Shown in pieces: positions 14,763-36,973 of a DNA stretch of 64,000 nt. The DNA comes from Candidatus Poribacteria bacterium (GTDB taxonomy: Bacteria; Poribacteria; WGA-4E; WGA-3G). The translations under genes and the position numbers were made by a program. Under the pieces are notes generated by a model, which was given only the letters and a program-made list of their open reading frames with translations, did not search any database and was not told the origin of the DNA. The DNA lies in NCBI GenBank assembly GCA_028821605.1, contig JAPPFM010000009.1, positions 62,001-126,000 of the forward strand. The letters run 5' to 3'. Each line of letters starts with the position of its first letter. Position 1 is the first letter of the stretch.

Positions 14763-14864
14763 TTGTGTTTCCTTTCCTCTGTTTCCAGAGCGTTTGTCAA
14801 ACAATGATATTTCCGTTATTTTGCCTCGTATAAGTTGAAAAATAGTGGACTGTCCACACTAAAA

Positions 14865-21594: not shown

Positions 21595-21690
21595 TTTTAT
21601 CTCCAATAAAAAGAGTCTACGGCGTTTAATCCGAAGACTTTAAAAAAAATCACTTAAAGTTTCAAAACGGACGGATTGTGATCTGCAAAA

Positions 21691-21736
21691 GAACTGGCAC
21701 CAGATAAATTTTTCAGGACTCATCCGGTGCCAGTTC
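21691..21736. terminator. Hairpin, possible terminator of the 21748 gene
   Basis: GAACTGGCACC and GGTGCCAGTTC form a perfect 11-bp stem around a 24-base loop, directly downstream of the minus-strand gene that ends at 21748. Confidence 0.5.
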
Positions 21737-21747
21737 CGTAGCAGGTT

Positions 21748-22557
21748 TTATTGTTCTGCGTTCTGCACTTCAGGTTCTGGACGTGTAACGATCCACTCTT
21801 GGAAAGCTGCCATGTCTCCAAAAAACGATCGCATGAGCGCGAATTCACCGGGGGCGGCAATCGCGCACCGCAGAAGCCCTTCCTGCTCCCCGTAAGTCTC
21901 TAAGCGGTTACGCCAGGCTTCTTGAAACACCTTACTGTCTTCTGTCATGAATATGGAAGACATACCGATTTGTACGATTTTGGTGTGCCAGCCGGATACT
22001 TCTTCATCGCTCTCCATCAAGGGTTCTATCAAATGCGTCTGCTGGAGTTCATTAAGTTCCTTCATATTGTCCCGTGGGTCTTCAACTGTGGTGCCCCACT
22101 CTCGAACAACGAAGTAGTAATTCTCCCAAATTTTTAGTTCTTCTTCCGTCATACCTACTCCGATAGTGGCTTTGATTCTGGAGAGTGCGGCAGCTTTGAT
22201 ATTTTCTGTTGGCATCGCGTTGACGTACGCCGGAAAGTCTTCGTAGTCCGCTCCTTCTTGTGCTTTCAAATAGGCGAGATAAGGATCGCTTGACAGAATA
22301 TTTTCTAAATCGCTTGGTGTTTGTGCTACGGAGGGATCCCCTATGGCTTCAAGAAGTTGGGACAAAAGTTCCTCCTGTTCTTCAGTCAAAGGTTCACGTG
22401 CAGACTCTCTTAGTGCTCGTCTGTGTTGTCTGTGTTTCTCGGTCATCTGTTCCATCTCCTCCATCATTTTCCCAAACCATGGAACAACAAACACAGCACC
22501 ACCAACGAGAAGAAGAACACCTATACCGATAAGAATCAGAAATATTGGTTTTTTCAT
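21748..22557 (-). CDS. Single-pass membrane protein, member of a local paralog family
   Basis: The 269-residue protein begins with one membrane helix (MKKPIFLILIGIGVLLLVGG) and then a helical, acidic domain that should lie outside the cytoplasm. The segments DLENILSSDPYLAYLK and, at the end, YGEQEGLLRCAIAAPGEFAL...FQEW match the protein at 23717 and, more distantly, those at 24568 and 29096. The family is not one I recognise. All members sit among the sigma-propeller genes, which suggests they are accessories or targets of that system. AGGAGG precedes the ATG. Confidence 0.7.
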   Translation of the reverse strand: MKKPIFLILIGIGVLLLVGGAVFVVPWFGKMMEEMEQMTEKHRQHRRALRESAREPLTEEQEELLSQLLEAIGDPSVAQTPSDLENILSSDPYLAYLKAQEGADYEDFPAYVNAMPTENIKAAALSRIKATIGVGMTEEELKIWENYYFVVREWGTTVEDPRDNMKELNELQQTHLIEPLMESDEEVSGWHTKIVQIGMSSIFMTEDSKVFQEAWRNRLETYGEQEGLLRCAIAAPGEFALMRSFFGDMAAFQEWIVTRPEPEVQNAEQ

Positions 22558-22675
22558 CCGGTGCCTCCTTTTTTGCTAAATTATTTTAACCGCATCATAG
22601 CATTTTTTGAGGCGGATTGCAATCTTTTAAGCAGATAGCATTGTCTAAAATTCATATATGACTCCAAAACTAAAA

Positions 22676-22940
22676 TTAAAGGAAAACTGAAACGGATCTC
22701 GTGACCAATTCTCGCATGTCTTTGTAGTAAACCGTTAATTTGAGTTCCGTTTGTGGTGATAACTCGTGTTCTAACTCCATGATGTAATGCTCAGTCAGGC
22801 TCGGTTTTAGGTCTCGATTTCCATCTGCCTTTAGTACCTGATACGCGAATGGACTCTGTTCATATCTACCGTACGTAGGCAAACCTGAGCGTAGAAGTCG
22901 TTGGCAGCGTGAAACTAAAACTTCCGCGTGGCTGAATTAA
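22676..22940 (-). pseudogene. Relic of a TonB-dependent receptor C-terminal region
   Basis: Two overlapping reading frames together give about 85 residues of TonB-dependent receptor barrel. In the first (22940 to about 22870) PRGSFSFTLPTTSTLRFAY matches the usual strand before the G-R-F/Y turn; the second frame then continues with GRYEQSPFAY, NRDLKPSLTEHYIMELEHEL and LKLTVYYKDM, typical receptor barrel segments. A frameshift near 22870 and loss of both ends show that it is dead. No other part of the receptor is present nearby. An 82-bp repeat begins 22 bases upstream of the fragment. Confidence 0.65.
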
Positions 22941-22962
22941 AAATTCTCGTTGACAGGAAATA

Positions 22963-23045
22963 GGATTTTTCAACAGAACGCAAAACAGCCAAACATACAA
23001 GGGACCTTCAATTCCCACGATAGTTTGGCTGTAATTGCGAAACAG
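22963..23045. repeat. 82-bp stem-loop repeat, copy A
   Basis: CAGCCAAAC and GTTTGGCTG pair around a loop that holds GGGACCTTCAATTCCC, itself able to fold. The flanks GAACGC and TTGCGAAACAG are also conserved. Near-identical copies lie at 28980 and 33561. This one is directly downstream of the minus-strand gene ending at 23060, where a terminator is expected. Confidence 0.7.
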
Positions 23046-23059
23046 AGTTTTATTTTTTT

Positions 23060-23491
23060 TTATTTTCTTTGCAGCCAGAGGGTGAGCATCCCTGCCCCTG
23101 CTCCGATGACAGTTATAGTTGGATAATACCACCACAAGAATCGGTTCCGTTTTTTCTTGATGGCTTCTCTTCGTTTTTGGATTTTCATAATCGCTCTTTT
23201 CCCTTTTTCAAGAGAAGCGAAATCGTTGTTTACTAACATCCAGCGTTGAACAAACAGTTCATCCTCAGTAAGTTTGTGAATTTCTGCCTGCCATTCATCT
23301 AATGGCGTTAACCAGCGTCCAAAACTGGTAACACCTATTATTATAAGGCTTGGAAGTCCGAGGATTGACTTGCTTTCTTTATCAGTGGACAAATTATTGG
23401 AGGATTGGGCTTGTGCGGCAGGCAATATTGTGGTAAACGCGAATACGAAAATAAGCAGGGTTGAGATCGCTCTCAGGGCGATTTTTGCCAT
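23060..23491 (-). CDS. Small membrane protein with signal peptide
   Basis: The 143-residue product has a signal peptide or first helix (residues 8-28, ending PAAQAQ), a possible short hydrophobic segment at about 44-58, a helical middle rich in Lys and Arg, and a C-terminal membrane helix (about 122-140). No family is recognised. It stands between members of the local paralog family and may belong to the same operon, although 225 bases of hairpin-rich DNA separate it from the gene upstream. Shine-Dalgarno: TTAGGAG-like before the ATG. Confidence 0.6.
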   Translation of the reverse strand: MAKIALRAISTLLIFVFAFTTILPAAQAQSSNNLSTDKESKSILGLPSLIIIGVTSFGRWLTPLDEWQAEIHKLTEDELFVQRWMLVNNDFASLEKGKRAIMKIQKRREAIKKKRNRFLWWYYPTITVIGAGAGMLTLWLQRK

Positions 23492-23519
23492 GTTGTTCTC
23501 CTAAAGGATTGATCTGAAA

Positions 23520-23673
23520 AAACTCACCTTTAACCCAATTCGAGAAGACTCCGAAGTCGGTAAGTCGTTCAGGATTTGTCAGGTGAGTTTAAATTCAAGG
23601 GCAACAAATCAAGTTGAACTCATCATTTGAGTTTGTGTCCTAAGCCGTATTACATCAAAGTAGGTTGGCTTAG
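23520..23673. other. Structured intergenic region with three stem-loops
   Basis: Three inverted repeats lie in sequence: AAACTCACCT/AGGTGAGTTT (23520 and 23581, 10-bp perfect stem, 51-base loop), AACTCA/TGAGTT (23617-23633), and CTAAGCC/GGCTTAG (23640-23673). Read on the minus strand they sit in the leader of the gene starting at 23491. They may be a terminator followed by a structured leader. No known riboswitch is recognised. Confidence 0.45.
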
Positions 23674-23716
23674 CGAGATAAAATATTCAATTTTTTCCCT
23701 CACTGATAAAACAGGT

Positions 23717-24571
23717 TCATTCATCTGTTTTTTCTTTTTTCTCTTCAGGCTCCGCTTCTGTTTTCAAAGATGTCTGGATCCATTTTTCAAATGCTGCGGT
23801 GTCCTCAAAAAACGAACGGACGAGAGCGAATTCAGTTGGCGTTGCAATCGCACACCGCAGTAGCCCCTCCGACGAACCGTGTTTTTCCAAACGCTCGCGC
23901 CACGCGTCATGAAAAACTTCAGTGTCCGTCTGTGCTGTAAGAGTGGAAACCATAGACATCTGCGTCAATTCTGATATATGGGAAAACAATTCCGCCGCTG
24001 GGTAAATTCCCATCAAGGGTTCCATCAAGTTTTTGGTTTGAAAGGCGACAAGTGCATTGGTTTTACCAAGAATGTCTGGTTCCTCCACGAGCAGCGAGCG
24101 GAATTTGAAGTAGTAATCTGTGCAAATTGATAGTGCTTTCGCCTTCGTATTTGGAGGTAACGCTTCTTTCAAAGAAAACAACACTTTGGTTTTTCGCTTC
24201 GGTGTTGGCATCACCGCAACGTAGTCTAAGAAATCTTTATACGTTTTCCCAGTTTCTGATTTCAGATAGGCTAAGTAGGGTTCACTGGATAAGATGTCAT
24301 CTAACGCACCGGTATTTTTAGACAGTTGACGCAGCAGTTTTTGTTGTGTCTCAGTCAAAGGTTTCTTGACTAATTCCTCCAGTGCCTTTTTACGCTTCTC
24401 GTGATCCTCCATTACATCTTCCACTCCCTGCATCATTTCACCTACCAATTCATTTCCTGCTTCCGTTTCGGGTTCGATTTCTTCGGCACCTTCAGCGGTA
24501 TTGTGAATGTAGAGGGAGAAAAGTAGAAACAGTAAGAAAAGAATCCTGAATTTTACAACGTTTTGCTTCAC
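23717..24571 (-). CDS. Secreted helical protein, member of a local paralog family
   Basis: The 284-residue protein has a signal peptide (FRILFLLFLLFSLYIHNTAEGA) and a helical acidic body. It is the closest relative of the protein at 21748: both contain ILSS(D/E)PYLAYLK and the C-terminal EGLLRCAIATPTEFAL...FEKW. It starts with GTG at 24571, overlapping the stop of the upstream gene as GTGA, so translation is probably coupled. The tail is Lys/Glu-rich. Function unknown; the location suggests a role in the envelope branch of the sigma-propeller island. Confidence 0.7.
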   Translation of the reverse strand: MKQNVVKFRILFLLFLLFSLYIHNTAEGAEEIEPETEAGNELVGEMMQGVEDVMEDHEKRKKALEELVKKPLTETQQKLLRQLSKNTGALDDILSSEPYLAYLKSETGKTYKDFLDYVAVMPTPKRKTKVLFSLKEALPPNTKAKALSICTDYYFKFRSLLVEEPDILGKTNALVAFQTKNLMEPLMGIYPAAELFSHISELTQMSMVSTLTAQTDTEVFHDAWRERLEKHGSSEGLLRCAIATPTEFALVRSFFEDTAAFEKWIQTSLKTEAEPEEKKEKTDE

Positions 24572-25740
24572 GGTTGAACCTCCGGTGATAAAGATTGGGG
24601 TGTCAGTTGACGAATGTCCGGTTTCGATGGTGCTGATTCTGTTGATTGTTCAGAGAGCCATGTTTCTATTTCAGCAGGTGAATCGAAACGTTCCAAAAGC
24701 CAGTTTGCGCCTTCTGTGTCGGTTTCAAGCAGCTGCAGCAAGCCCTCATCTGTTCCGTGCTGAGATAGGATTTCCTTGATAGAATTTATTCTCGCCGTGG
24801 ACATTGGCGTAGGTAAATCTATTTCAGATTCCTTTGCTACGACCGGCGCACTTCCGCTTGGATCAACAGGTTGAGATTCAATCGTTTCTGTCGTGTCTGT
24901 CGCGGTTTGTGGTGTTGGTGTTGACACTGCTGCTGAATCTTGGGGATTGATTTCTGTAAGCATCTGTGTGAATGTAGACATGTCTTCTGGGATATCATAC
25001 TGAATGTTCTCTAACTCGCCTCCTACAAGGATTTGTTGCGTCATCCAGTCCATCTGTTGACCTATCTCTCCTTTAAAGTTGGCAAGTGCCCAAAATTGGA
25101 AATCTTGCTCCCGAGCGAGATTCATCGTAACAGCCGACATTACCTCTTGAAAGTTGCCAGGTGTCGCGGCAACTATTTCGTGGATTCGCTGTGCCATTTC
25201 CACTTCATAATCCTCAGGTTCACCTTCAGGAAAATGCCTTCGGAAAGCCTCTTGTGAAATTTTCGCGAAATCAATCTTGGGACCGTTTTCACCCATAAAA
25301 ATGTTCATGTATTCTTGGATGTTGAAATCAGGAAATTCACCCTCCTCTAAACCTTCCATTTTTTCCTCCATGTACTTCATAGCTGCATCCATTCGGGCTG
25401 CGAACTCTGGACCCATAGCCTCCTTAATACGTTCAGGGTCTTTTGAACGCAGTGCTTCTTTGAGTTTGTCCATATCTACGTCTGACCCAAATGTTTCGGA
25501 GAGTGTCTCTTTGAGTTTATCCACATCTGCGTCTGACCCAAATGCTTGGGAGAACGCATCAGTTTCAGTAAGGGGGTTTGCTCCATTGTTTTCGGGCATA
25601 TCGGCTGGCTTTATACTTTTCTGAACAGACTCCCTTTCGACGGGTGCTGCGACTTTGGAACTTGGTGCGCGTAAAAACGCAAAGCCAATAAGAGAGACAA
25701 AGCACAGTCCTATAATAATCGGAAACAGACGATTTTTCAT
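24568..25740 (-). CDS. Membrane-anchored acidic protein with C-terminal paralog module
   Basis: The 390-residue protein has an N-terminal helix (LFPIIIGLCFVSLIGFAFL), a region with two near-identical segments (SQAFGSDADVDKLKETLSE and SETFGSDVDMDKLKEALRS), a helical domain, a Thr/Gln/Pro linker and a C-terminal module with HGTDEGLLQLLE and ETWLSEQ that resembles the ends of its neighbours. The ATG at 25740 is chosen because AGGAGG precedes it and the helix then starts at residue 5. It begins 19 bases after the sigma-propeller gene that ends at 25760, and its stop overlaps the next gene by four bases, so the three are very likely co-expressed. Confidence 0.7.
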   Translation of the reverse strand: MKNRLFPIIIGLCFVSLIGFAFLRAPSSKVAAPVERESVQKSIKPADMPENNGANPLTETDAFSQAFGSDADVDKLKETLSETFGSDVDMDKLKEALRSKDPERIKEAMGPEFAARMDAAMKYMEEKMEGLEEGEFPDFNIQEYMNIFMGENGPKIDFAKISQEAFRRHFPEGEPEDYEVEMAQRIHEIVAATPGNFQEVMSAVTMNLAREQDFQFWALANFKGEIGQQMDWMTQQILVGGELENIQYDIPEDMSTFTQMLTEINPQDSAAVSTPTPQTATDTTETIESQPVDPSGSAPVVAKESEIDLPTPMSTARINSIKEILSQHGTDEGLLQLLETDTEGANWLLERFDSPAEIETWLSEQSTESAPSKPDIRQLTPQSLSPEVQP

Positions 25741-25759
25741 GAAAGACCTCCTGTCTTTA

Positions 25760-28700
25760 TCAATTGTTTTCGTTTTCAAGTGAGATGTGGAACATCCCGC
25801 GTTGTTTAGTGGCTACATAAAGCCTATTACCATTAACAGTAGCAGAGATAATACTGTCTGGTACCTCTGGCGATATTTTTTCCCATTCACCCCGCTTATT
25901 CAATCGGTGTGCACCCCCACTGCCGACACCATAAACCGTTGTGCCAGCCGCAGTCATTCGGTCTATGATAGTGTTCATCCCTGTTTTGTCAGTAATCACG
26001 CGCCAATGTTCACCGTCTTCTGATGTCAGAATCCCTGCGTTCGTTGCGACGTACACCGTTGAACCTGCAAACACTATCTCGTTGATATGCGCAAAGCGAA
26101 GCGGTAGGTTTGGCGTTAGGTCCTTCCACGTATTGCCGCCATCAAATGATCGAAATAGATGACCATCACGTTTTCCGACGTAGACGGTTTCATAGGAAAC
26201 AGCAAGTTTGAGGTTTTCCATACTGTCTCCCAGGCTTTCAATATCCTTTGGGAGTTCCGCCATATCTATCAGTCCAGTATTGAACCATTCGGATTCACCG
26301 CGTTTCCATCGAAAAAGCCTGCGCTTATATTCCACGTAGAACGTCTCGCCGCTGACTGCGAATCCACTGGGATACTTCTCCAGATGTTGCATTGGGTCCG
26401 TCTGCTGAACTATATCAGTGAAGTCATCTGCTTTTTCAGCATCACCAGAAGTGTTATCTGCTATATTTTCTTTGGGGACTTTCTGCGATACTGCCTTTAA
26501 TTTGTCTATGGAGAGATCACCTCGGAAAGGTGGAACCCCTTGGATAGGTACGAAGATACTGCCATCCGCAGAAAGATGAAAAATGAGCAGTTCATTTTCT
26601 TCTTTCGCTGCAATACCGTAGAATATATCGTCAGAAATAGCGGACTTAGAGGAAACCAAAAAATCGTTAGGAACGACTTCTTTTTCTGATTTTAGTGTAG
26701 GTTCTCCAGAATCAAGGCGAAGTGCTTTCCAAGACTCCCCGCCATCAGTGGACCTGGTAATAGACGTGTTAGTATTGGTATAGAGGGCATTCTTGAACGC
26801 AACTAAGTTATATATTCTGGTGCCCACCATCCCCTTCATAAATGAATGCCACGATTCACCGCCATCGGTTGAACGGGTGGGACCGAAGTACCCACCTTTG
26901 AAAAGTGTATTTTCGTCCGACACCACAGCAGGAAATATACTCGCCATCATGGAATTCATCATTGAATTTGGGTCAAGAATATCAGTACCGAGTTCAGTCC
27001 ATGTGTTTCCACCATCCATTGAGCGGAATGTGCCCATCATTCCCAGTGCTAAGACGGTTTCTCCAGCCGCTAAAACTTTAATACCTGGCGACACTTTCAT
27101 TGTAAACAAATTGCTCGTCGGGGTTATCTCAGTCCATGAGTTTCCCAAATCTGTTGAATGGAAGAGTTCCCATGCCTGCGAATTGTTGCCAGGCATAAGT
27201 TGCTTCACGTACGCAGCTCTACCTTCAGCGGTCATAAGTTGATATAAATCGGGACCTGTTCCAACGTAGAGGTTGTTTCCAGAGACTGCCAAGGAGTGGA
27301 TAGCGTTGGTGGTATCCACCGGTAATTTTTCCCACGTGCCTGCGTGTAAGCGGTAAAGCCCTTGGGTTGTACCAACAAATACCGTGTTTTCAACAGCGGC
27401 AATTGCGAGAATGATTCTGCCTTCTACTTTATCTACTAACGGGGTCCATTGTTTATCGGCATCCGTAGATCGGAAAACCTGCTCGTCAAGGGCAAGGTAG
27501 CGTCCATCATCCGTTATAACGAGTCCGACAGCATGTCCTTTCGGACGCTCGCCAAGCGATTTCCAGTTCTCACCTCTGTCCGTTGAAGCAATCACTTCAT
27601 TGGTAGAGACGAGATAGAGCGTATCCCCTCGCTCTGCCATCGGCGCGTTCCCCGTAATCGGTACAGAGGCATTGATGAGTGCCCATGTAGACGCGTCTGG
27701 TGTCAATTTATAGATACCAATGGATGAAGCAGCGTATATGTCGCCTGTAGCACTTACCTGTAAACCTAACACAGAAGCCTCTGCTGGACCACTTGCTTGT
27801 ACCCACTGCTGCTGTGTTGACGGGCGCGTCTCCTTTTCTACCCGTCCTGCCCCGAGTACAACAGGGTCCGAAAGTTGCGGACCCGTACTGCCGCGCTTAC
27901 CGGTGTTCTCGAAACGTCCGGCTTGGTTCCGTAAATCCGGTTTTGCCTGTGAGTCAAGTACGATAGGTGCGTCAATAATGTCAACGGTGATTTCGGACTG
28001 CGCGTTCAGATTGTAGGGTTTCTGAAAGCGAGCAAGGTATTGGGATCCCACACCCATTATGAGAAAGATAACAATGGCGGTTGTAGCGGTGATAGCCCAC
28101 GGCATGAGTGGCTTGTTGATCGTAGGACTTACCGGCTTTATATCGGCGACTTGCCTGATGATGTTTTCAGTGAAATTTGTAGGGAGATGTACGTTGCCAA
28201 GCGTTTCTTGGATCATGTTTTCTTGCTCTTTTAGGCGATTCCGTGCGCGTTGGAGGCGACTCTTGACTGTGTTTGGTGATACACCCAAAAACTCACCGAT
28301 CGCTTTAGATGTCATTTCTCCGAGATAGTGGAGTGTCACGACCGTGCGTTCACTCTCCGGCAGTTTTTCTAAAAGGTTTCTAACGCGTCTGCGACGATAT
28401 TCGACAGATGCTTCCTCGCGCTGCTCATCTTCGTAGTGACGATAAGACGATTCGTCTATCTCCTCCCCACTCGTGGTTTCCAAAGATTCTATTGGCGGTT
28501 TCTGCTTTCGATGCCAATCGATACAAATCCGATCCGCAATCACATAGAGCCATCCAGCAAACTGGTTCGGATTCTTCAACGTTGCGAGTTTCTGGTATGC
28601 CTTGAGGAAGGTGTCCTGCGTGAGTTCTTCGGCAATATGGAAATCGCCAATCTTCCGCCACGCGAGCGCGTGGACGCTTTTCTGGTATTTTTTCACCAGC

Positions 28701-28765
28701 GTCGTAAAAGCATTTTCGTTGCCTGTCAAGAATTGGTTAACCAGTTGGGCATCTTCGTTTTTCAT
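25760..28765 (-). CDS. ECF sigma factor - TM helix - Asp-box propeller fusion (copy 1)
   Basis: The 1001-residue chain has three parts. Residues 1-190 are a complete ECF sigma factor: region 2 with HALAWRKIGDFHIAEELTQD and FAGWLYVIADRICIDW, region 4 with LHYLGEMTSKAIGEFLGVSP and KSRLQRARNRLKE. Residues 221-241 are one membrane helix, followed by a juxtamembrane sequence with SEITVDIIDAPIVLD shared by all four tethered sigma factors here. Residues about 310-1000 are a propeller with many Asp-boxes (STDRGENW, STDLGNSW, SMDGGNTW, STDGGESW twice, SFDGGNTW), as in BNR/sialidase-type and Ycf48-like proteins. The sigma part is expected in the cytoplasm and the propeller outside. No anti-sigma factor gene is adjacent. 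Confidence 0.88.
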   Translation of the reverse strand: MKNEDAQLVNQFLTGNENAFTTLVKKYQKSVHALAWRKIGDFHIAEELTQDTFLKAYQKLATLKNPNQFAGWLYVIADRICIDWHRKQKPPIESLETTSGEEIDESSYRHYEDEQREEASVEYRRRRVRNLLEKLPESERTVVTLHYLGEMTSKAIGEFLGVSPNTVKSRLQRARNRLKEQENMIQETLGNVHLPTNFTENIIRQVADIKPVSPTINKPLMPWAITATTAIVIFLIMGVGSQYLARFQKPYNLNAQSEITVDIIDAPIVLDSQAKPDLRNQAGRFENTGKRGSTGPQLSDPVVLGAGRVEKETRPSTQQQWVQASGPAEASVLGLQVSATGDIYAASSIGIYKLTPDASTWALINASVPITGNAPMAERGDTLYLVSTNEVIASTDRGENWKSLGERPKGHAVGLVITDDGRYLALDEQVFRSTDADKQWTPLVDKVEGRIILAIAAVENTVFVGTTQGLYRLHAGTWEKLPVDTTNAIHSLAVSGNNLYVGTGPDLYQLMTAEGRAAYVKQLMPGNNSQAWELFHSTDLGNSWTEITPTSNLFTMKVSPGIKVLAAGETVLALGMMGTFRSMDGGNTWTELGTDILDPNSMMNSMMASIFPAVVSDENTLFKGGYFGPTRSTDGGESWHSFMKGMVGTRIYNLVAFKNALYTNTNTSITRSTDGGESWKALRLDSGEPTLKSEKEVVPNDFLVSSKSAISDDIFYGIAAKEENELLIFHLSADGSIFVPIQGVPPFRGDLSIDKLKAVSQKVPKENIADNTSGDAEKADDFTDIVQQTDPMQHLEKYPSGFAVSGETFYVEYKRRLFRWKRGESEWFNTGLIDMAELPKDIESLGDSMENLKLAVSYETVYVGKRDGHLFRSFDGGNTWKDLTPNLPLRFAHINEIVFAGSTVYVATNAGILTSEDGEHWRVITDKTGMNTIIDRMTAAGTTVYGVGSGGAHRLNKRGEWEKISPEVPDSIISATVNGNRLYVATKQRGMFHISLENENN

Positions 28766-28766
28766 C

Positions 28767-28860
28767 AGTTTACTCCCATGAGATACGGATGTGTGGTTTT
28801 AAAACATGACCCTCGTACTGCCTTCACTAATTAATGACGTAATTTAAAATGCGGAAAGTT
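28767..28860 (-). promoter_or_regulatory. Conserved upstream region of sigma-propeller gene 1
   Basis: On the minus strand this region shares CGTCATTAAT...and GGTCRYG(Y)...TTAAAACC blocks with the regions before the other two sigma-propeller genes (33349 and 36656). Such a block upstream of each copy is what an autoregulated ECF promoter would look like, but the -35/-10 cannot be fixed by eye. Confidence 0.45.
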
Positions 28861-28979
28861 GCATAATGGAAAAAAAGTTGAAAAAATTATATCACAACTT
28901 CACTGAAATGTTCTTTTGATATAGTGAAAAGGAGAATTTGCCGATTGTTTGTGGCGAATACTGCTGTATTTTTTAGATC

Positions 28980-29061
28980 GGATTTTCAGCAGAACGCGAA
29001 AAAGCCAAACCTGTGAGGGACCTTCAATTCCCACAATGGTTTGGCTGTAATTGCGAAACAG
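28980..29061. repeat. 82-bp stem-loop repeat, copy B
   Basis: AGCCAAACC and GGTTTGGCT pair perfectly around GGGACCTTCAATTCCC. It matches the copies at 22963 and 33561. It lies just downstream of the minus-strand gene ending at 29096, and it is the distal part of an intergenic block of about 295 bases that is duplicated at 33348-33642. Confidence 0.7.
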
Positions 29062-29095
29062 AAAATCGTTATAGTGTTTATTGTATTGTTGCTTC

Positions 29096-29893
29096 TTATT
29101 GATGAAACTCTCCAGCCATCCATTTCAACAACACTTTTGGGTCCGTAAAATCTTTGAGAATATATCCGATTAACACGGGGTCCTCAAGCGCGATCCAAAT
29201 AAGCACATCACGTTCGCCGTGTTTATTGAGAAGTTCCTGAGCGAGTGCAGCATCTACCTGCTCAGTTTTTTGGACGTAAAAGCCAAGTTCCACGGTAAAG
29301 AAAATGATTTCCTCCTCATTTAAAGCATTGCCCTCGCCGTCTACAAAATGCTTAAGCCCTATATTTATTGCAGGGCCTTTCATCAACTTCACCAATTCGT
29401 CTTGAAAAATATCAGGATCTTCGTCATGGTATTCACGGGTTAGAACATGTCTATAGTGTACTGCGAAAAGATGTGCATTCGCCGCATCTTCTTCGTCAGG
29501 TTTCTCAAGATGGTGCTTTAAAAATGGCAGGTATCGCGACAGATGAGATGCTGCGATTTTCCAGAATGCATCATAAGTTTGATATTGAGCTTCTATCGGA
29601 TGGTTATGCCTGAGGAAGTCTAAATAGGTTTTGGACGTGACAAGCCGTCGGAGGGTTTTGAAACCTTCATCTAAAATGTCACCAGGGTTTTCACGTTTGA
29701 GGTGTTCAAACGTCTCCTCGATCGTTGGTGGTCGTGCGATTGGCTCAATACCATCCTCCGTGTCAATGTTCTCTTTTTCGGGTTTGAGAGTGCTTGGATC
29801 GGGACTTGATTGACACGCAAAAAATAATGATCCCGCTAAAAGGAGATAGATCTGCAGTTGGTTGAAAAAACGCTCACACTTAAAGAATCGCAT
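29096..29893 (-). CDS. Putative lipoprotein, distant member of the local paralog family
   Basis: The 265-residue protein has an N-terminal hydrophobic stretch ending SLFFACQSS, a possible lipobox with Cys near residue 27, then a Pro/Glu-rich linker and a helical domain. LRRLVTSKTYLDFLRHN corresponds to the ILSSxPYLAYLK segment of its relatives, and the end (KHGERDVLIWIALEDPVLIG...LLKWM) matches their C-terminal module. It sits between two sigma-propeller genes with another lipoprotein 21 bases upstream. Function unknown. Confidence 0.68.
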   Translation of the reverse strand: MRFFKCERFFNQLQIYLLLAGSLFFACQSSPDPSTLKPEKENIDTEDGIEPIARPPTIEETFEHLKRENPGDILDEGFKTLRRLVTSKTYLDFLRHNHPIEAQYQTYDAFWKIAASHLSRYLPFLKHHLEKPDEEDAANAHLFAVHYRHVLTREYHDEDPDIFQDELVKLMKGPAINIGLKHFVDGEGNALNEEEIIFFTVELGFYVQKTEQVDAALAQELLNKHGERDVLIWIALEDPVLIGYILKDFTDPKVLLKWMAGEFHQ

Positions 29894-29914: not shown

Positions 29915-30346
29915 TTAGGGTAATTCTGCTATGTGTCGCTGTGGTTTTAGCGTTATCTCAATCTGCTTTCTACCTGTGCTCCAATTAAGTATGAGTTCGA
30001 CTTTATACGTTAGGAAAGAATCAATGGGATTCTCCAAATCTGTGGGTTCTGTCTTGCTAAATGTAAGGTATAGCGTCACAATGTTGTCGATTTGTTCCCA
30101 TTGATGTTCGTAATCTTCGTGATTAATGACGACTTCAATGATTTTTAAATCCATCGGGGGTTGTGAGAAAACCACCTCTATTTTAGCCTCCCAGCTCTGG
30201 TCGCTGAGTTCGTAGATTTTGGCTTCCTTCACCTTGGCAATGCGGGCGGCTTCTGTTGGATCAATGTACCTATCCGCATTGCACCCAAACAAACAGCCAA
30301 GCAGTACAATAAATATCAAAGGTTTTCTAAGCAGATGATTTTTCAT
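29915..30346 (-). CDS. Small putative lipoprotein
   Basis: A 143-residue protein with a clear lipoprotein signal: LIFIVLLGCLFGC, with the acylated Cys in the LFGC box near residue 22. The mature part has several strand-like segments (WEAKIEVVFSQPP, VTLYLTFSKTEP, YKVELILNWSTG, KQIEITLKP) and looks like a small beta-sandwich. No family is recognised. It is 88 bases downstream of the sigma-propeller gene ending at 30435 and 21 bases before the next lipoprotein gene, so all three may be one transcript. Confidence 0.72.
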   Translation of the reverse strand: MKNHLLRKPLIFIVLLGCLFGCNADRYIDPTEAARIAKVKEAKIYELSDQSWEAKIEVVFSQPPMDLKIIEVVINHEDYEHQWEQIDNIVTLYLTFSKTEPTDLENPIDSFLTYKVELILNWSTGRKQIEITLKPQRHIAELP

Positions 30347-30434: not shown

Positions 30435-33347
30435 CTACCATTCTTTCTCAAGAGGAACATAAAACATCCCACGCTGTTCAGTCGCAATATAAAGTCTGTC
30501 GCCTTTAGCCACGAAAGAGATGACACTATCTGGCACTTCTGGCGAAATCTTTTCCCATTCCTCACGATTATTCAATCGATAGACACCTTCGTCACCAGCA
30601 CCGTAAACTGTTGTGGTATCCACAGCAATTTGATCGATGAGGGTGTGCGTTCCTGCCGTGTCGGTGATTGCGTGCCAATGTTTATCGTCTCCTAATCTCA
30701 AGACCCCCGCGTCTGTAGCAACATACACTGTTGAACCCGCAAAGATTATATCATTGAAACGCTCAAAACGCAGTGGAAGATTTGAAGTCAAGTCCTTCCA
30801 TGTGCTGCCACTATCAAACGATTGAAAGAGGTGGCCATCGCGTTTTCCGACGTAGACGGTTTCATCGGAAACAGCAAGATTCAAACCTTTTATAATATCA
30901 TAGTCATCATTGGCGGATTCTCCTGTATCTATGAGTCCGGTCCTAAACCATTCCGATTCACCGCGTTTCCACCGAAGAAGCTCTCGCTTGTATTCTACAT
31001 AGAAGGTTTTGCCACTGACTGCAAATGCACCGGGAAATTTTTCGAGGGAATCCATTAAATCTGCCCACGCCTTTAGATCTGTTATAGAAAATTTTTTGCC
31101 AAGAGCTGGTGTGCCTTGGATAGGAATTAACACATTACCATTCGCGGAGAGACGGCAGAGATGAAATGTATTCTCTGTGGCTGAACCAGATGCGATGCCA
31201 TACAGGACACCGTCAGCAATTGCTAATTTTGGAAAAATCAGTGGGAAAGTAGAACTGTTTTCCTCTACCGGTTTTAGTGTGAGTTCGCCTGAAGCCAACC
31301 GAATATGTTTCCACGATTCACCGCCATCGCTGGATTTAGAAACACCCTTGGTGGTACTCGTGTAAAGTTCATTTTTGAACCCCACTAAGTTGAATACTGC
31401 GATACCTGCTATTCCATCCATAAATGAGTGCCATGATTCGCCACCATCGGTTGAGCGTGTAAGTCCAGAGACTCCGGCTTTGAGGAATGTATTTTCATTC
31501 ACTGCTACCACAGGGGTCCAAGTAAGTATTGTCATTGAATCCTTACCCAATTTTGTCCACGTTTTTCCACCGTCGCTTGAATGGAAACTTATCAATCCTA
31601 ATACCAGAATACCCTTTTCAGCTGCCAAGACTTTAACGCCCGACGAGATTTTCATCATGTGCGAATTGCTTGTCGGCGTTATATCGGTCCACGAATCGCC
31701 CAAATCGGTTGAGTGGAAGACTTCCCATGTCCTTACATCCGAATTGATGTTGCTCATAACGTTCTCTAAATACGTCTGTCTGCCTTCAGGGTCTCCCAAC
31801 TGAGAGAGGTCGCGTCCTGTTCCGATATAGAGATTATTCCCCGAGACTGACAAAGAGTGGATGGCTTTCGTGGTATCTATCGACAATTTCTCAGATGTCC
31901 CTGAATGTAAACGATAGAGACCTTGGTTTGTCCCAACAAACACTGTGTTTTCAATAGCAGCGACTGAAAGAACCTCACCCTCTACCACGTCATTGTTAAG
32001 TGGTGTCCACTGCTTACCCACATCCGTAGATTGGAAAATACCTTCATCTCGAAACGCAAGGTACAATGCATCATCCGTTATCACGAGTCCAATAACGCGT
32101 CCCTGTGGACGCTCGCCAAGTTTTGTCCATGTCTCGCCTCTATCTTTTGACGCAAACACACCACTGGGAAAAACGAGATAGAGGGTGTCGTTTCGTTCTG
32201 CCATCGGTATTCCGTGGTTGTCTGTGGTAACCTCTGGAGGGAGCGGACTCACGAGCGTCCAGGCAGTGGCATCTGGTGCTAATCTGTAGATACCGATTTT
32301 AGAAGTAGCATAGACATCTCCCCATGAACTTACTAATACACCCGATACTGAACCCGCTTTTTCAGGCCCGCTTGCCTGTATCCACTGCTGTTTTGTTGAC
32401 GGACGCGTCTCCTTTTCTACCTGTGCCGCGGCAAGCAGTACGGGTTCGGAAACTTGCGGACCGGCACCGCTGCTTTTACCGGTAGTATCGAAACGTCCGG
32501 ATTGGTTTCGTAGATCAGGCTTTGCTTGCGTATCAAGTACGATGGGCGCATCAATGATTTCAACGGTTGTTTCAGATTGTGCGTTCAAGTTGTAGGGCTT
32601 CTGAAAACGGGCGAGGTATTGCGAACCCACACCCATCATGAGAAAAATAAAAACGGCTGTTGCAGCAGAGAGTGCCACCGGCACTAACGGTCTGCTGCTC
32701 ATAGGGGGTGTTGGCTTTATATTAGCAGTTTGTCGTATAATATTCTCGGTGAAGTTGGCAGGCAAGTGTACGCTGCCGAGTGTTTCTTGAATCATGTTTT
32801 CATGCTCCTTTAGACGATTCCGTGCGCGTTGGAGGCGACTTTTTACTGTATTTGGGGACACACCTAAAAACTCACTGATCGCTTTATAGGTCATTTCTCC
32901 AAGATAGTGAAGTGTCACAACTGTGCGTTCGCTCTCCGGTAGTTTTTCAAGGAGGTTTTTGATGCGTCTGCGCCGATGTTCGACGGAGGCTTCCATGCGC
33001 TGTTCGTCTTCGTAGTGGCGGTAAGACGATTCTTCTATTTCTTCTCCACTCGTGGTTTCTAAAGATTTCATCGGAGGTTTCTGCTTTCGATGCCAAGCGA
33101 TACAAAGCCGATCAGCAATCACATAAAGCCAGCCAGCGAACTGGTTCGGATTCTTCAACGTTCCAAGTTTCTGGTATGCTTTGAGAAAAGTATCCTGCGT
33201 CAGTTCCTCTGCGATGTGGAAGTCGCCAACCTTCCGCCATACCAGCGCGTGGATGCTCTTCTGGTGTTTTTTCACCAGCAGGGTGAAGGCATTCTCGTCA
33301 CCTGACAAAAAGCGGTTGACGAGTTGTGCATCTTCGGTTTTCATCAA
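30435..33347 (-). CDS. ECF sigma factor - TM helix - Asp-box propeller fusion (copy 2)
   Basis: A 970-residue paralog of the proteins at 25760 and 33736, closest to the latter. Sigma region 2 (HALVWRKVGDFHIAEELTQD) and region 4 (LHYLGEMTYKAISEFLGVSP) are intact. A membrane helix follows near 220-240 (VALSAATAVFIFLMMGVGSQ) and then the shared SETTVEIIDAPIVLD sequence. The propeller has Asp-boxes such as SKDRGETW, STDLGDSW, SSDGGKTW, STDGGESW, SSDGGESW and SFDSGSTW. The start follows a TAGGAG motif. It is transcribed ahead of two lipoprotein genes. Difference between the copies is greatest within the propeller, which fits different ligands. Confidence 0.88.
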   Translation of the reverse strand: MMKTEDAQLVNRFLSGDENAFTLLVKKHQKSIHALVWRKVGDFHIAEELTQDTFLKAYQKLGTLKNPNQFAGWLYVIADRLCIAWHRKQKPPMKSLETTSGEEIEESSYRHYEDEQRMEASVEHRRRRIKNLLEKLPESERTVVTLHYLGEMTYKAISEFLGVSPNTVKSRLQRARNRLKEHENMIQETLGSVHLPANFTENIIRQTANIKPTPPMSSRPLVPVALSAATAVFIFLMMGVGSQYLARFQKPYNLNAQSETTVEIIDAPIVLDTQAKPDLRNQSGRFDTTGKSSGAGPQVSEPVLLAAAQVEKETRPSTKQQWIQASGPEKAGSVSGVLVSSWGDVYATSKIGIYRLAPDATAWTLVSPLPPEVTTDNHGIPMAERNDTLYLVFPSGVFASKDRGETWTKLGERPQGRVIGLVITDDALYLAFRDEGIFQSTDVGKQWTPLNNDVVEGEVLSVAAIENTVFVGTNQGLYRLHSGTSEKLSIDTTKAIHSLSVSGNNLYIGTGRDLSQLGDPEGRQTYLENVMSNINSDVRTWEVFHSTDLGDSWTDITPTSNSHMMKISSGVKVLAAEKGILVLGLISFHSSDGGKTWTKLGKDSMTILTWTPVVAVNENTFLKAGVSGLTRSTDGGESWHSFMDGIAGIAVFNLVGFKNELYTSTTKGVSKSSDGGESWKHIRLASGELTLKPVEENSSTFPLIFPKLAIADGVLYGIASGSATENTFHLCRLSANGNVLIPIQGTPALGKKFSITDLKAWADLMDSLEKFPGAFAVSGKTFYVEYKRELLRWKRGESEWFRTGLIDTGESANDDYDIIKGLNLAVSDETVYVGKRDGHLFQSFDSGSTWKDLTSNLPLRFERFNDIIFAGSTVYVATDAGVLRLGDDKHWHAITDTAGTHTLIDQIAVDTTTVYGAGDEGVYRLNNREEWEKISPEVPDSVISFVAKGDRLYIATEQRGMFYVPLEKEW

Positions 33348-33348
33348 A

Positions 33349-33440
33349 TTTCTCCTACGTAGAATACAACAGCGTGGTTTTAACGCGCGACCATCGAACT
33401 GCTGTTACTATTAATGACGCGATTTAAAAGACAGAATGGT
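33349..33440 (-). promoter_or_regulatory. Conserved upstream region of sigma-propeller gene 2
   Basis: This block is nearly identical to 36656-36745: a palindromic CCTACGTAGG next to the ribosome binding site, then blocks reading on the minus strand GTCATTAATAGTAACAGCAG and GGTCGCGCGTTAAAACC. The AAC and CGTT words about 18 bases apart resemble ECF-type -35 and -10 elements; this assignment is inference. Confidence 0.5.
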
Positions 33441-33560
33441 GCATAACAACAAAAAAGTTGAGAAAATTATATCACAACTACGCTGAAATGTTTCTTTTCA
33501 TATAGTGAAAGGTGGAATTTACTGATTGTTTGTAGCGAATACTACTGTATTTTTTACATC

Positions 33561-33642
33561 AGATTTTTCAGCAGAACGCGAAACAGCCAAACCTATGAAG
33601 GATCTTCAATTCCCACAATAGTTTGGCTGTAACTGCGAAATA
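33561..33642. repeat. 82-bp stem-loop repeat, copy C
   Basis: CAGCCAAAC and GTTTGGCTG pair as in copies A and B; the loop differs slightly (GGATCTTCAATTCCC). It lies about 95 bases beyond the 3' end of the sigma-propeller gene ending at 33736. Confidence 0.7.
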
Positions 33643-33735
33643 GAACTTAATTTTTTGTTTTTCGTTTTGATTTACTTTTCAGACATAGTTAATCACTTGG
33701 TAATTCAGAAATTAACACCATCACGATACGCTTGC

Positions 33736-36654
33736 CTACCGTTCTTCTTCAAGAGGAACGTAGAACATCCCGCGATGTTTGGTGACGATATAAAGTCTAT
33801 CGTCCTTAATAACCAGCGACTTGACGCTATCTGGTGCTTCTGGCGAGAGTTTTTCCCATTCCTCACGATCATTTAATCGATAGACACCTTCGTCCCCAGC
33901 ACCGTAAACTGTTGTAGTATCCACAGCAATTTGATCAATGAGGGTGTGCGTTCCTGCTGTATCGGTGATTGCATGCCAATGTTCACCGTCTTTTGAAGTC
34001 AAGACACCCGCGTCTGTAGCAACGTACACTATTGCACCCGCAAAGATTATATCATTGAAACGCTCAAAACGCAGTGGTAAGTTTGAGGTTAAATCGCTCC
34101 ATGTGCTGCCACTATCAAATGACTGAAAAAGGCTGCCATCGCGTTTCCCGACATAGACGGTTTCCTCAGAGACAGCAAGCTTAAGACTTTTCGGACCATC
34201 ATTACCATCGTTGGAGGGTTCGCTTGTATCTATGAGTCCAGTGTTAAACCATTCCGACTCGCCGCGTTTCCACCGGAGGAGCTGCCGTTTGTGCTCTACA
34301 TAGAAGGTCTTGCCGCTGACCGCAAATGCGCTCGGAGATCTTTCGCGTTGACGTATTATATCTGCCCACGCCTTTGTATCTGTGATGAGGGGATCTTCAC
34401 CGAGTGTCGGTGTTTCTCGGATCGGAACTAACACATTGCCATTCGCAGAGAGGCGACAGATATGCAATTTATTCTGCGGAACTGAAGCAGTAGCGGCTCC
34501 ATAGAGGATGCCATCCGCAATCGTTAATTTTGGAGAAATCAGTGGCTTAGTGGAACTGGCTTTCTTTGTAGGTTTTAGTGTGAACCAGCCGAAATCCATG
34601 GGAACATCTTTCCACGATTCGGCACCATCGCTGGATTTGAAAGCACCTTTGGATGTGCTCGTATAAAGTTCGTCCTTAAATCTCCTTAAGTTGTATATGT
34701 TAGTACTTACGATGCCATCCGTAAATAGATGCCACGATTCGCCACCATCGGTTGAGCGTGTAAGCCCAGGTGTTTCAACTTTAAAAAATGTATTTTCATC
34801 CACTGCTACTGCAGGGGTCCAACTAAGTATAGTCATTGAATCTCTACTCAATTCTGTCCATGTTTTTCCACCGTCGGTTGAGCGGAAACTTACCATTCCT
34901 AATGCCAGAATGCTATTCCCAGCTGCCAAGACTTTAACGCCCGACGAGATTTTCATCATGTGTGAATTGCTTGTCGGTGTTATATCGGTCCACGATTCAC
35001 CCAAATCGGTTGAGTGGAAAATCTCCCATTTCCTGACATTAGTGTTGCTCTTAAGTTCCTCCATAAGTTTCTCCATGTACGCTGACGTTCCTTCAGGGCT
35101 TCTCAATTGAGAAAGGTCGCGTCCAGTTCCGACATAGAGATTATTGCCAGAGACTGACAAAGAACGGATGGCTTTCGTGGTATCTATCAACAATTTCTCG
35201 CATGTCCCTGAATGTAAACGATAGAGGCCCTTGTTTGTTCCGACAAACACTGTATTTTCAATAGCAGCGACTGAGAAAACCTCGCTATCTGACACTTCAT
35301 TGTTGAGCTGTGTCCACTGCTTACCCGCATCTGTAGACCGGAAAATGCCTTCATTTCGAAACACAAGGTACAATGCATCATCCGTTATCACGAGCCCAAT
35401 AACGCGTCCGTTCGGACGCTCGCCAAGTTTCGTCCATGTCTCACCTCTATCTTTTGATGCAAACACACCATTGGGAAAAACAAGATAGAGGGTATCGTTT
35501 CGTTCTTCTATCGGTATTCCGTGGTTGTCTACAGAAGCCTCTGCGGGAAGTGGACTCACGAGCGTCCATGCAGGGGTATCGGGTGGTAATCTATAGATAC
35601 CGATTCGTGAAGTCGCGTAGACATCCCCCCATGAACTTACCAATAAGCCTGATGCTGAGGTGCCTTCTTCTGGACCGCTCGCTTGTATCCACTGCTGTTT
35701 TGTTGGCGGGCGCGTCTCCTTTTCTATCTGTGCAGCGGCAAGCAGCACGGGTTCAGAAACCTGTGGACCGGCACCTTCACCTTTACCGGTGATATCGAAA
35801 CGTCCCGCTTGATTCCGTAAATCCGGCTTTGCCTGTGTATCAAGGACAATGGGGGCATCAACAATTTCAATGGTGGTTTCAGATTGTGCGTTCAGGTTGT
35901 AAGGTTTCTGAAAACGAGCGAGGTGCTGCGAACCCACACCCATTATGAGAAAAATAAAAATGGCTGTTGTGGCTGAGAGTGCCCATGGCATGAGCGGTTT
36001 ACTGTTCGTAGGCGATACCGGTTTTATGGTAGCGATTCGCTGCATAATATTTTCGGTGAAAGTAGTGGGTAGATGTACGCTTCCGAGTGTTTCTTGAATC
36101 ATGTTTTCTTGCTCCTTTAGGCGATTCCGGGCGCGTTGGAGACGGCTCTTAACCGTGTTTGGAGACACGCCTAAAAATTCGCTAATCGCTTGGCATGTCA
36201 TTTCTCCAAGATAGTGGAGTGTTACGACTGTGCGTTCGCTCTCCGGTAGTTTTTCCAATAGATTGCTGATGTATCCGCGACGGTATTCAGCAGATGCCTC
36301 GTTGCGTTGTTCATCTTCATAATGCCGATAAGATGATTCCTCTATCTCCTCTCCACTCGTGGTTTCTAAGGATTCCATCGGTGGCTTCTGCTTTCGGTGC
36401 CAAGCGATACAAAGCCGATCAGCAATCACATAGAGCCAGCCAGCGAACTGGTTCGGATTCTTCAACGTTCCAAGTTTCTGGTATGCCTTGAGGAAGGTAT
36501 CCTGTGTGAGTTCCTCGGCAATATGGAAATCGTCAACCTTCCGCCATACCAGCGCGTGGATGCTTTTCTGGTGTTTTTTTACCAACGAAGTGAAGGCATT
36601 CTCGTCACCTGACAAAAAGCGGTGTACGAGTTGTGCATCTTCGGTTTTCATCAA
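33736..36654 (-). CDS. ECF sigma factor - TM helix - Asp-box propeller fusion (copy 3)
   Basis: The 972-residue protein has the same order as the other two: ECF sigma factor (HALVWRKVDDFHIAEELTQD; LHYLGEMTCQAISEFLGVSP), membrane helix near 222-242 (ALSATTAIFIFLIMGVGSQ), the juxtamembrane SETTIEIVDAPIVLD, then an Asp-box propeller (SKDRGETW, STDAGKQW, STDLGESW, STDGGKTW, STDGGESW, SSDGAESW, SFDSGSTW). All sigma determinants look intact, so it is not obviously decayed. It is the first of three tandem copies on the minus strand; the spacer to copy 2 is 388 bases and includes that copy's own conserved upstream block, so each copy probably has its own promoter. Confidence 0.88.
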   Translation of the reverse strand: MMKTEDAQLVHRFLSGDENAFTSLVKKHQKSIHALVWRKVDDFHIAEELTQDTFLKAYQKLGTLKNPNQFAGWLYVIADRLCIAWHRKQKPPMESLETTSGEEIEESSYRHYEDEQRNEASAEYRRGYISNLLEKLPESERTVVTLHYLGEMTCQAISEFLGVSPNTVKSRLQRARNRLKEQENMIQETLGSVHLPTTFTENIMQRIATIKPVSPTNSKPLMPWALSATTAIFIFLIMGVGSQHLARFQKPYNLNAQSETTIEIVDAPIVLDTQAKPDLRNQAGRFDITGKGEGAGPQVSEPVLLAAAQIEKETRPPTKQQWIQASGPEEGTSASGLLVSSWGDVYATSRIGIYRLPPDTPAWTLVSPLPAEASVDNHGIPIEERNDTLYLVFPNGVFASKDRGETWTKLGERPNGRVIGLVITDDALYLVFRNEGIFRSTDAGKQWTQLNNEVSDSEVFSVAAIENTVFVGTNKGLYRLHSGTCEKLLIDTTKAIRSLSVSGNNLYVGTGRDLSQLRSPEGTSAYMEKLMEELKSNTNVRKWEIFHSTDLGESWTDITPTSNSHMMKISSGVKVLAAGNSILALGMVSFRSTDGGKTWTELSRDSMTILSWTPAVAVDENTFFKVETPGLTRSTDGGESWHLFTDGIVSTNIYNLRRFKDELYTSTSKGAFKSSDGAESWKDVPMDFGWFTLKPTKKASSTKPLISPKLTIADGILYGAATASVPQNKLHICRLSANGNVLVPIRETPTLGEDPLITDTKAWADIIRQRERSPSAFAVSGKTFYVEHKRQLLRWKRGESEWFNTGLIDTSEPSNDGNDGPKSLKLAVSEETVYVGKRDGSLFQSFDSGSTWSDLTSNLPLRFERFNDIIFAGAIVYVATDAGVLTSKDGEHWHAITDTAGTHTLIDQIAVDTTTVYGAGDEGVYRLNDREEWEKLSPEAPDSVKSLVIKDDRLYIVTKHRGMFYVPLEEER

Positions 36655-36655
36655 A

Positions 36656-36745
36656 TTTCTCCTACGTAGGATACAGCTGCACGGTTTTAACGCGCGACCA
36701 TCGGACTGCTGTTACTATTAATGACGCGTTTTAAAGAGCCAAAGG
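36656..36745 (-). promoter_or_regulatory. Conserved upstream region of sigma-propeller gene 3
   Basis: Nearly identical to 33349-33440 through the CCTACGTAGG palindrome, the GGTCGCGCGTTAAAACC block and GTCATTAATAGTAACAGCAG. Similarity to the other copies ends near 36765, marking the edge of the duplicated unit. Confidence 0.5.
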
Positions 36746-36973
36746 TTGCATAGTGGCAAAAAATTGATATACTGCAGGAGCTGCCCCGGTCGCGATTTAT
36801 CCCATAATCCGCCAAGTTCATAAAAATCCGAGATTCAGACAGAGCATTTCGGTGAAATATTTTACATCTAACTCACGTTAAATTAATACCTATGGTGTTG
36901 TTTGTAATCGCACCGATCATCTGGAACTGAACACCGACAACTGATAACTGACAACCATTTGAAAATGTTTCGC
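36746..36973. other. Intergenic DNA with ACTGATAACTGA-type tract
   Basis: No gene is seen. At 36924-36956 there is a tract of degenerate words (AACTGAACACCGACAACTGA, then TAACTGACAACC). Similar tracts are found near 43521, 43588, 44788, 55997, 56947 and 62149. Confidence 0.5.

Follow-up and report, generated by a model that had tools for sequence, protein, structure and literature searches.

Candidate extracytoplasmic partner proteins encoded with membrane-tethered extracytoplasmic function sigma factors in Candidatus Poribacteria

What role is played by four related envelope proteins whose genes are interleaved with genes for sigma factors that appear to be fixed in the membrane? This question is raised by a stretch of 64,000 nucleotides (the window) from an uncultured, sponge-associated member of Candidatus Poribacteria (contig JAPPFM010000009.1, positions 62,001 to 126,000). 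Its minus strand carries genes in the order S3, S2, PY, P4, S1, P3, P2, PX and P1, followed by two ABC transporter genes; S1 to S3 are predicted sigma-propellers, P1 to P4 the four envelope proteins, and PX and PY small proteins. A preliminary description, made from the window sequence, had correctly located P1 to P4, had united them by a C-terminal module and had considered them as partners of the propellers, anti-sigma-like controls or regulon members. The reading put forward here, to which we give about even confidence, is that P2, P3 and P4 are extracytoplasmic partner proteins co-made with membrane-tethered extracytoplasmic function (ECF) sigma factors. They most likely act on the ectodomains of these sigma factors or on how the sigma domain is set free. 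In this reading contact and proteolysis are predicted elements, as is the sign of control, while sequence comparison supports the homology, the operon and the promoter motif.

P1 (membrane-anchored, 269 amino acids, 21748..22557) was delimited from the list of open reading frames (ORFs), blastp, hydropathy and family alignment, P2 (signal-bearing, 284 amino acids, 23717..24571) by family alignment and an all-helical model, P3 (membrane-anchored, 24568..25740; annotated ORF to 25779) by alignment, which re-started it at Met14, and P4 (lipobox-bearing, 265 amino acids, 29096..29893) by family alignment and profile comparison. Blastp identifies P1 and P2 as paralogues (1.2e-54, 42% identity), and in single-sequence form it gave weak matches for the module in P3 and P4, mostly with E ~0.01-0.1 in a ten-protein database. 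Family alignments of 45 rows (P1/P2), 19 rows (P4) and 20 rows (P3) were compared by hhalign. The P1/P2 family matched the P4 family over 207 columns (probability 98.3, E 1.6e-14) and the P4 family matched the P3 family over 187 columns (probability 96.9, E 1.8e-10), whereas P1/P2 and P3 were matched over only 47 C-terminal columns (probability 91, E 8.9e-7). When one alignment was reversed as a control, the same three comparisons dropped to probabilities of 0.5-5. In a leave-window-out test, hidden Markov models (HMMs) built without the window rows were run against the 257 window ORFs. The P4-family HMM recovered P2 (1.1e-18), P1 (6.5e-15) and P3 (3.7e-4), with the next best unrelated ORF at 0.025; the P1/P2 HMM fell short, reaching beyond its own members no better than 0.009 for P4 and 3.3 for P3, and the P3 HMM found P1 at 4e-7, P2 at 0.009 and P4 only at 0.89. 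Judged from the profile comparisons and the leave-window-out searches, P1, P2 and P4 are therefore one full-length family, homologous over about 200 residues, to which P3 is joined through P4; P3 certainly shares the C-terminal module in sequence and, linked through P4, probably shares most of the fold. The module common to P1 to P4 is supported by the family profiles and by both controls; the shared architecture is longer, and the module forms its C-terminal end. A second segment, resembling ILSS.PYLAYLK and ascribed earlier to three of the proteins, matches exactly in P1 (ILSSDPYLAYLK) and P2 (ILSSEPYLAYLK); in P4 (LVTSKTYLDFLR) the match is loose, and the profile alignment places it in register.

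All four proteins had been described as carrying an N-terminal signal, anchor or lipobox, and in agreement with this, hydropathy indicates a hydrophobic anchor preceded by few residues at the N-terminus of P1 and P3, while P2 begins with a signal-like sequence and P4 has a lipobox-like FFAC, read by eye, with no 19-residue hydropathy window above 1.6. From these signals and anchors P1 to P4 are predicted to lie almost wholly outside the cytoplasm. The model of P2 is all-helical (predicted local distance difference test score (pLDDT) 87, predicted template-modelling score (pTM) 0.80); that of P3 is poor (pLDDT 62) and shows an anchor and a helical domain, from which a linker of low confidence, taken to be flexible (residues 273-324), leads to a separate helical C-terminal module (328-379). 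Fold searches with both models found nothing significant among solved structures, a result that says little in the case of P3; with P2, Foldseek gave no match at E <= 0.001 and the best VIA-align result (Z 6.1, root-mean-square deviation 4.3, 88 residues) is within the chance range for helical models. A PDB sequence search gave a best E of 0.15. No Pfam family was found for P1 to P4, their sole matches lying below the cut-offs, nor any NCBIfam family; one sub-threshold NCBIfam match, of the type II secretion system protein GspM to the P1 anchor, was judged an effect of that hydrophobic segment. By these searches the family appears to be new to Pfam, NCBIfam and the solved structures. Literature searches on Poribacteria and on tethered or propeller-extended sigma factors brought up, in their lists of hits, no description of the P-protein family or of the system, and the main text of the Poribacteria single-cell genome paper, in its available portion, is without the words sigma, propeller, FtsZ and ECF (PMC3909097).

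The proteins beside which the P genes stand are S1 (1001 amino acids, 25760..28765), S2 (970 amino acids, 30435..33347) and S3 (972 amino acids, 33736..36654), and the window encodes on the same strand a second kind of tethered ECF sigma factor, E0 (14865..16412), without a propeller. S1 and E0 exceed the Pfam cut-offs for ECF-type sigma regions 2 and 4, S1 and S2 exceed the cut-off of TIGR02937, and S3 was assigned as a sigma factor by its 80% identity to S2. Hydropathy places a single transmembrane helix after the sigma domain in each of them (S1, residues 219-245; S2, 218-243; S3, 220-243; E0, 222-240), with a second, weaker hydrophobic segment inside the propeller of S3. The large propeller, of the Asp-box/Sortilin/YCF48-like type, is detected by Pfam in S1 and S2 and by blastp and hydropathy in all three, which are recent paralogues (63-80% identity). 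By sequence criteria S1 to S3 and E0 are membrane-tethered ECF sigma factors, and their proteolytic release is predicted. Directly after E0, a redoxin protein with an N-terminal extension is encoded (13446-14804), and a 92% identical copy stands beside a relative of E0 in locus L071.

How might P genes be transcribed with the sigma genes? P3 probably starts at the conserved Met14 (25740), where most of its relatives start, and the P3 and P2 genes share 4 bp (GTGA), which hold the stop of the one and the start of the other. The claim that two P genes share a sigma transcript is borne out by tight spacing, although P3 is separated from S1 by a gap of 19 bp and not by an overlap, and P4 follows S2 only after PY, a small lipobox-bearing protein (29915..30346) found in the same order in L048, with gaps of 88 bp (S2-PY) and 21 bp (PY-P4). 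Sixteen P3 genes were read immediately downstream of a sigma-propeller gene or gene fragment, and every one of them overlaps it or begins no more than 35 bp away. The proteins they encode all end in E-V/I/T-Q/K-P. This tail was considered as a propeller ligand and set aside as a lead only, the case being confounded in the window, where the bases that encode it also serve P2 as ribosome-binding site and overlapping start; L052 and L083 lack P2 directly behind P3, yet keep the tail as E-T-K-P.

A motif search revealed TGCA[AC]C-N17/18-C[AG]TCA[CT]TA, an arrangement that we take to be of the ECF type, upstream of sigma-propeller genes, with three copies in the window: before S1 (28832..28863, TGCAAC-N18-CGTCATTA), S2 (33412..33443) and S3 (36719..36750), all on the minus strand. 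Among 100 sampled loci, 29 of 37 matches lie at most 400 bp before a sigma-propeller gene and two before a TonB-receptor-like gene (L065, L115); this pattern, looser than the weight matrix used next, also hit random regions five times in 0.74 Mb and reversed sequence twice in 1.59 Mb. A weight matrix exceeded its threshold at 28 of 45 sigma-propeller genes, a count that is partly circular in that the matrix was trained on such sites. Free of this circularity are the counts for control genes (0/593), for TonB-receptor-like (2/16), DUF3352 (0/22) and other genes (10/874) in the same loci, and for P1/P2-type (0/75, 250 bp upstream), P3 (0/49) and P4 genes (1/34). Genome-wide, 13 sites were found in the window's own genome against 4 for the backward-read pattern, and the flanks were read for 12 of the 13: ten of these sites lie ahead of an ECF gene, one lies ahead of an ABC ATPase gene and one has nothing within reach. 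Because the motif precedes sigma-propeller and ECF genes, these results point to autoregulation of the sigma-propeller genes by this group of tethered sigma factors. An ABC ATPase gene, preceded by the motif in two genomes (G000:C2:13893, G017:C1:2273138), is likely a further target. On the counts given, we rejected the possibility that the P genes have an ECF promoter of their own, and since the motif is nearly absent before them, P2, P3 and P4 would depend on read-through.

P1 is probably a separate, sigma70-driven gene off the sigma transcript, because it has its own conserved sigma70-like promoter and a 3' hairpin. The promoter (TTGCAA-N17-TATGAT with TG before the second hexamer, 22594..22622, minus strand) was found by scan and conservation: TTGnnn-N17-TAYSAT stands upstream of 27 of 28 P1-type genes, the window included, and this conservation is what supports it, simple promoter and terminator scans giving no more sites than shuffles. 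Directly after P1, a hairpin followed by a T-rich run (21690..21737, minus strand; -36.1 kcal/mol, z -5.9 for a 101-nt stretch) is by folding energy a probable terminator. Between P2 and P1 lie PX (23060..23491), a small signal-bearing protein without a Pfam match that recurs in related loci, and the remnant of a TonB-dependent-receptor-like gene (22685..22937, minus strand; tblastn 90% over 63 amino acids, blastn 90.7% over 247 bp), which is intact at this position in relatives. One repeated segment of L048 is matched at 86-91% identity by the intergenic stretches 22933-23055, 28983-29059 and 33562-33653, that is, upstream of S1 and S2 and beside the receptor remnant.

The proposal of partners or regulon members is supported for P2, P3 and P4 by gene order, tight gaps and an autoregulatory-looking promoter, whereas P1, on the promoter evidence, does not belong to the regulon. 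The main rival to the partner reading is that P2, P3 and P4 are plain regulon products, envelope effectors without sigma contact. We consider this possible but rather doubtful. Co-transcription with an autoregulatory-looking sigma gene is what is expected of a regulon member, and the motif also precedes ordinary-looking targets, namely the TonB-receptor-like and ABC ATPase genes mentioned above. However, in G067, a genome of the same order, one ORF located directly after a BlaI repressor gene (both in L043:5897-9114) encodes an M56 BlaR1 peptidase, a redoxin and a C-terminal P1/P2 domain, so that the same fold ends a BlaR1-type sensor. Moreover, a C-terminal domain of E0 (residues about 415-497, 14922-15170) recurs in P3-like proteins that also carry the C-terminal module (L232, L236, L247-L250; E 1e-5 to 1e-15), whereby a P3-associated domain is built into a tethered sigma factor. 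Such fusions count against plain effectors because effectors are not expected to be joined to regulators; with few events each, they tie the family by sequence to membrane-bound transcription control outside the window operon.

The distribution of the P families and sigma-propellers was examined in 84 genomes of the phylum. The P1/P2 family occurs in 52 genomes (51 of 58 in the window's family, and G067), P4 in 42, all in the window's family, and P3-like proteins in 59, seven of them outside it; named relatives of the P1/P2 family also belong to Candidatus Poribacteria. Sigma-propellers were detected in 67 genomes (E <= 1e-80; scoring limited to ten candidates per genome) and are co-present in all 52 P1/P2, all 42 P4 and 58 of the 59 P3-like genomes, while the 17 genomes without a detected sigma-propeller contain no P1/P2, no P4 and a single P3-like protein (G066), a co-occurrence that kinship alone could give. 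In the gene strings of 80 loci and 20 further ones a conserved order of sigma-propeller, P3, P2, TonB-receptor-like or DUF3352 gene and P1 was found; many genomes within the genus share this order, and two further genera share part of it. For well-flanked loci (at least 7.5 kb on both sides of the member; 37 loci near ends set aside), an ECF gene was found in the fetched stretch, at up to about 9 kb, near 30 of 36 P1/P2-type, 11 of 15 P4-type and 3 of 10 P3-only members, as compared to 5 of 40 random windows of similar size; a sigma-propeller was present in 1 of the 40. The 30 ECF-positive P1/P2-type loci comprise 18 with sigma-propellers and 12 in which the second gene downstream of the P gene encodes an ECF-FtsZ fusion; among the 11 P4-type loci, four have plain ECF genes that are not of the propeller type. 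A wide occurrence of P members without a nearby tethered sigma factor, the outcome fixed beforehand as telling against the link, was not seen for P1/P2-type or P4-type loci, but for P3-only relatives the sigma link largely fails.

Could closeness of P and sigma genes merely reflect hitch-hiking in genomes full of ECF genes, together with recent duplications? ECF genes are abundant, with 83 in the window's own genome and 23-104 per genome across 8 genomes, and the close relationship of S1 to S3 is in line with duplication. Still, the excess over random windows (ECF gene 30/36 versus 5/40, sigma-propeller 18/36 versus 1/40) and an order kept across genera with small gaps already disfavour this explanation, which we regard as improbable. 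Several observations nevertheless weigh against the partner reading. The 12 ECF-FtsZ loci share one gene order and are not independent events. More generally, ECF genes are abundant, and the counts are of loci related by descent, so that Fisher values calculated from them overstate independence. Loci free of ECF genes amount to 6 of 36 for the P1/P2 type (L051, L053, L091 and L098; L056 and L084 with a propeller fragment), 4 of 15 for the P4 type and 7 of 10 for P3-only members. Most genomes of the window's family have at least 10 sigma-propeller matches, only some with P genes alongside; P proteins are not required by all sigma-propellers. P1, finally, is without the sigma-propeller promoter.

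That P1 to P4 are anti-sigma factors holding the sigma domain directly, a role suggested by their adjoining ECF genes, as is usual for anti-sigma factors in the accessible part of PMC8103513, is very improbable because almost nothing of the P proteins is cytoplasmic, and Pfam and NCBIfam reveal no anti-sigma domain in them.

The ECF-FtsZ gene, which sits two genes downstream of a P1/P2-family gene, is itself unusual. In L044 (12762-16796; G000:C56:40761-44795) a single frame of 1344 amino acids encodes an ECF sigma factor fused to a complete FtsZ and to roughly the N-terminal 800 residues of DNA polymerase III alpha, each of the three exceeding its NCBIfam cut-off. Such a frame is also present in L061, L089, L096, L100, L102, L105, L107 and L108; in L101 it has 986 amino acids. 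A shorter form of 553-556 amino acids, with sigma factor and FtsZ only, occurs in L062 (checked by Pfam), L092 and L106. On one 289-kb contig (G017:C2), three near-identical P4-P4-P3 units near 29-33, 267-271 and 285-288 kb may represent duplication or an assembly effect. Elsewhere in the window, the ORF 16632-17582 presumably encodes a transposon-associated TnpB-type protein, judging by eye.

On the sequence evidence, each sigma-propeller consists of an ECF sigma domain in the cytoplasm and a large propeller, with a single transmembrane helix between the two. The sigma genes have an ECF-type promoter of their own; translation of P3 and P2 follows immediately on that of S1, and translation of P4 on that of S2 with PY in between. 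According to the partner reading, the P proteins would be placed at the outer side of the inner membrane, the lipobox-bearing P4 possibly on a periplasm-facing membrane, where they would touch the propeller or each other and set the timing of sigma factor release, which probably occurs by regulated proteolysis. As an active sigma factor would increase its own level together with those of P2, P3 and P4, these three would constitute a feedback arm, and P1, with its separate promoter and own terminator, would provide a steady background of the same fold. RseB takes part in the control of RpoE, and because of the analogy with RseB it is slightly more likely that the P proteins restrain than that they help release of the sigma factor.

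Tethered sigma factors freed by proteolysis are known in the case of IutY and have been proposed for ECF48, ECF52 and ECF53, according to the available part of PMC8999054. In IutY (ECF243) a membrane-bound anti-sigma factor forms one chain with the sigma factor, which Prc and RseP release (PMC8999054, same part). As in IutY, so far as that source describes it, the ECF sigma factors of the window are membrane-tethered via their C-terminal part, with an extracytoplasmic domain beyond, but the ectodomain of S1 to S3 is a large Asp-box propeller, additional helical ectodomain proteins are co-encoded, and proteolytic release is here predicted. The ECF52-type SCO4117 likewise combines, by the same partial source, a sigma domain, a transmembrane part and an extracytoplasmic binding domain in one chain (PMC8999054), whereas no zinc-finger anti-sigma domain is found here by Pfam and the companion family is new. 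ECF57 members are reported in the available text to carry WD40-like C-terminal repeats (PMC8999054); the likeness lies in propeller-type repeats after the ECF domain, and the matches here are of the Sortilin/YCF48/BNR type and lie beyond a transmembrane helix. With the RseA/RseB-DegS-RseP control of RpoE in Escherichia coli, as given in the accessible part of PMC8103513, the system would share an extracytoplasmic protein that tunes sigma-freeing proteolysis, a working idea that claims no homology to RseA or RseB, and unlike there the sigma factor itself is tethered. A FecI-FecR-FecA arrangement was rejected for the locus: there is no FecR-type anti-sigma Pfam match in P1 to P4, PX or PY, and no TonB-dependent receptor with an N-terminal signalling domain, the window having only the remnant. 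The intact receptor-like protein of L048 has CarboxypepD_reg-like domains, a plug match just below the cut-off and no signalling domain. The C-terminal part of BlaR1 is its sensor, and in G067 the P1/P2 domain takes this position in an M56 protein beside BlaI, while the P proteins of the window are, unlike in BlaI-BlaR1, separate proteins beside sigma factors.

Regulatory extensions of sigma factors are poorly understood; according to the available part of PMC8999054, they occur in 26 ECF groups, 15 of which are still to be studied. With a defined operon, a candidate promoter and candidate extracytoplasmic partners, the control of a tethered sigma factor becomes testable by reporter. Tentatively, Poribacteria may use the family as an interchangeable extracytoplasmic input module for several kinds of membrane-bound gene switch, in the form of separate proteins with sigma-propellers, of the sensor end of a BlaR1-type protease or, as a shared domain, within the chain of a tethered sigma factor, a proposal that we hold with considerable doubt. 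If true, the family would constitute a signal-input device absent from the libraries searched.

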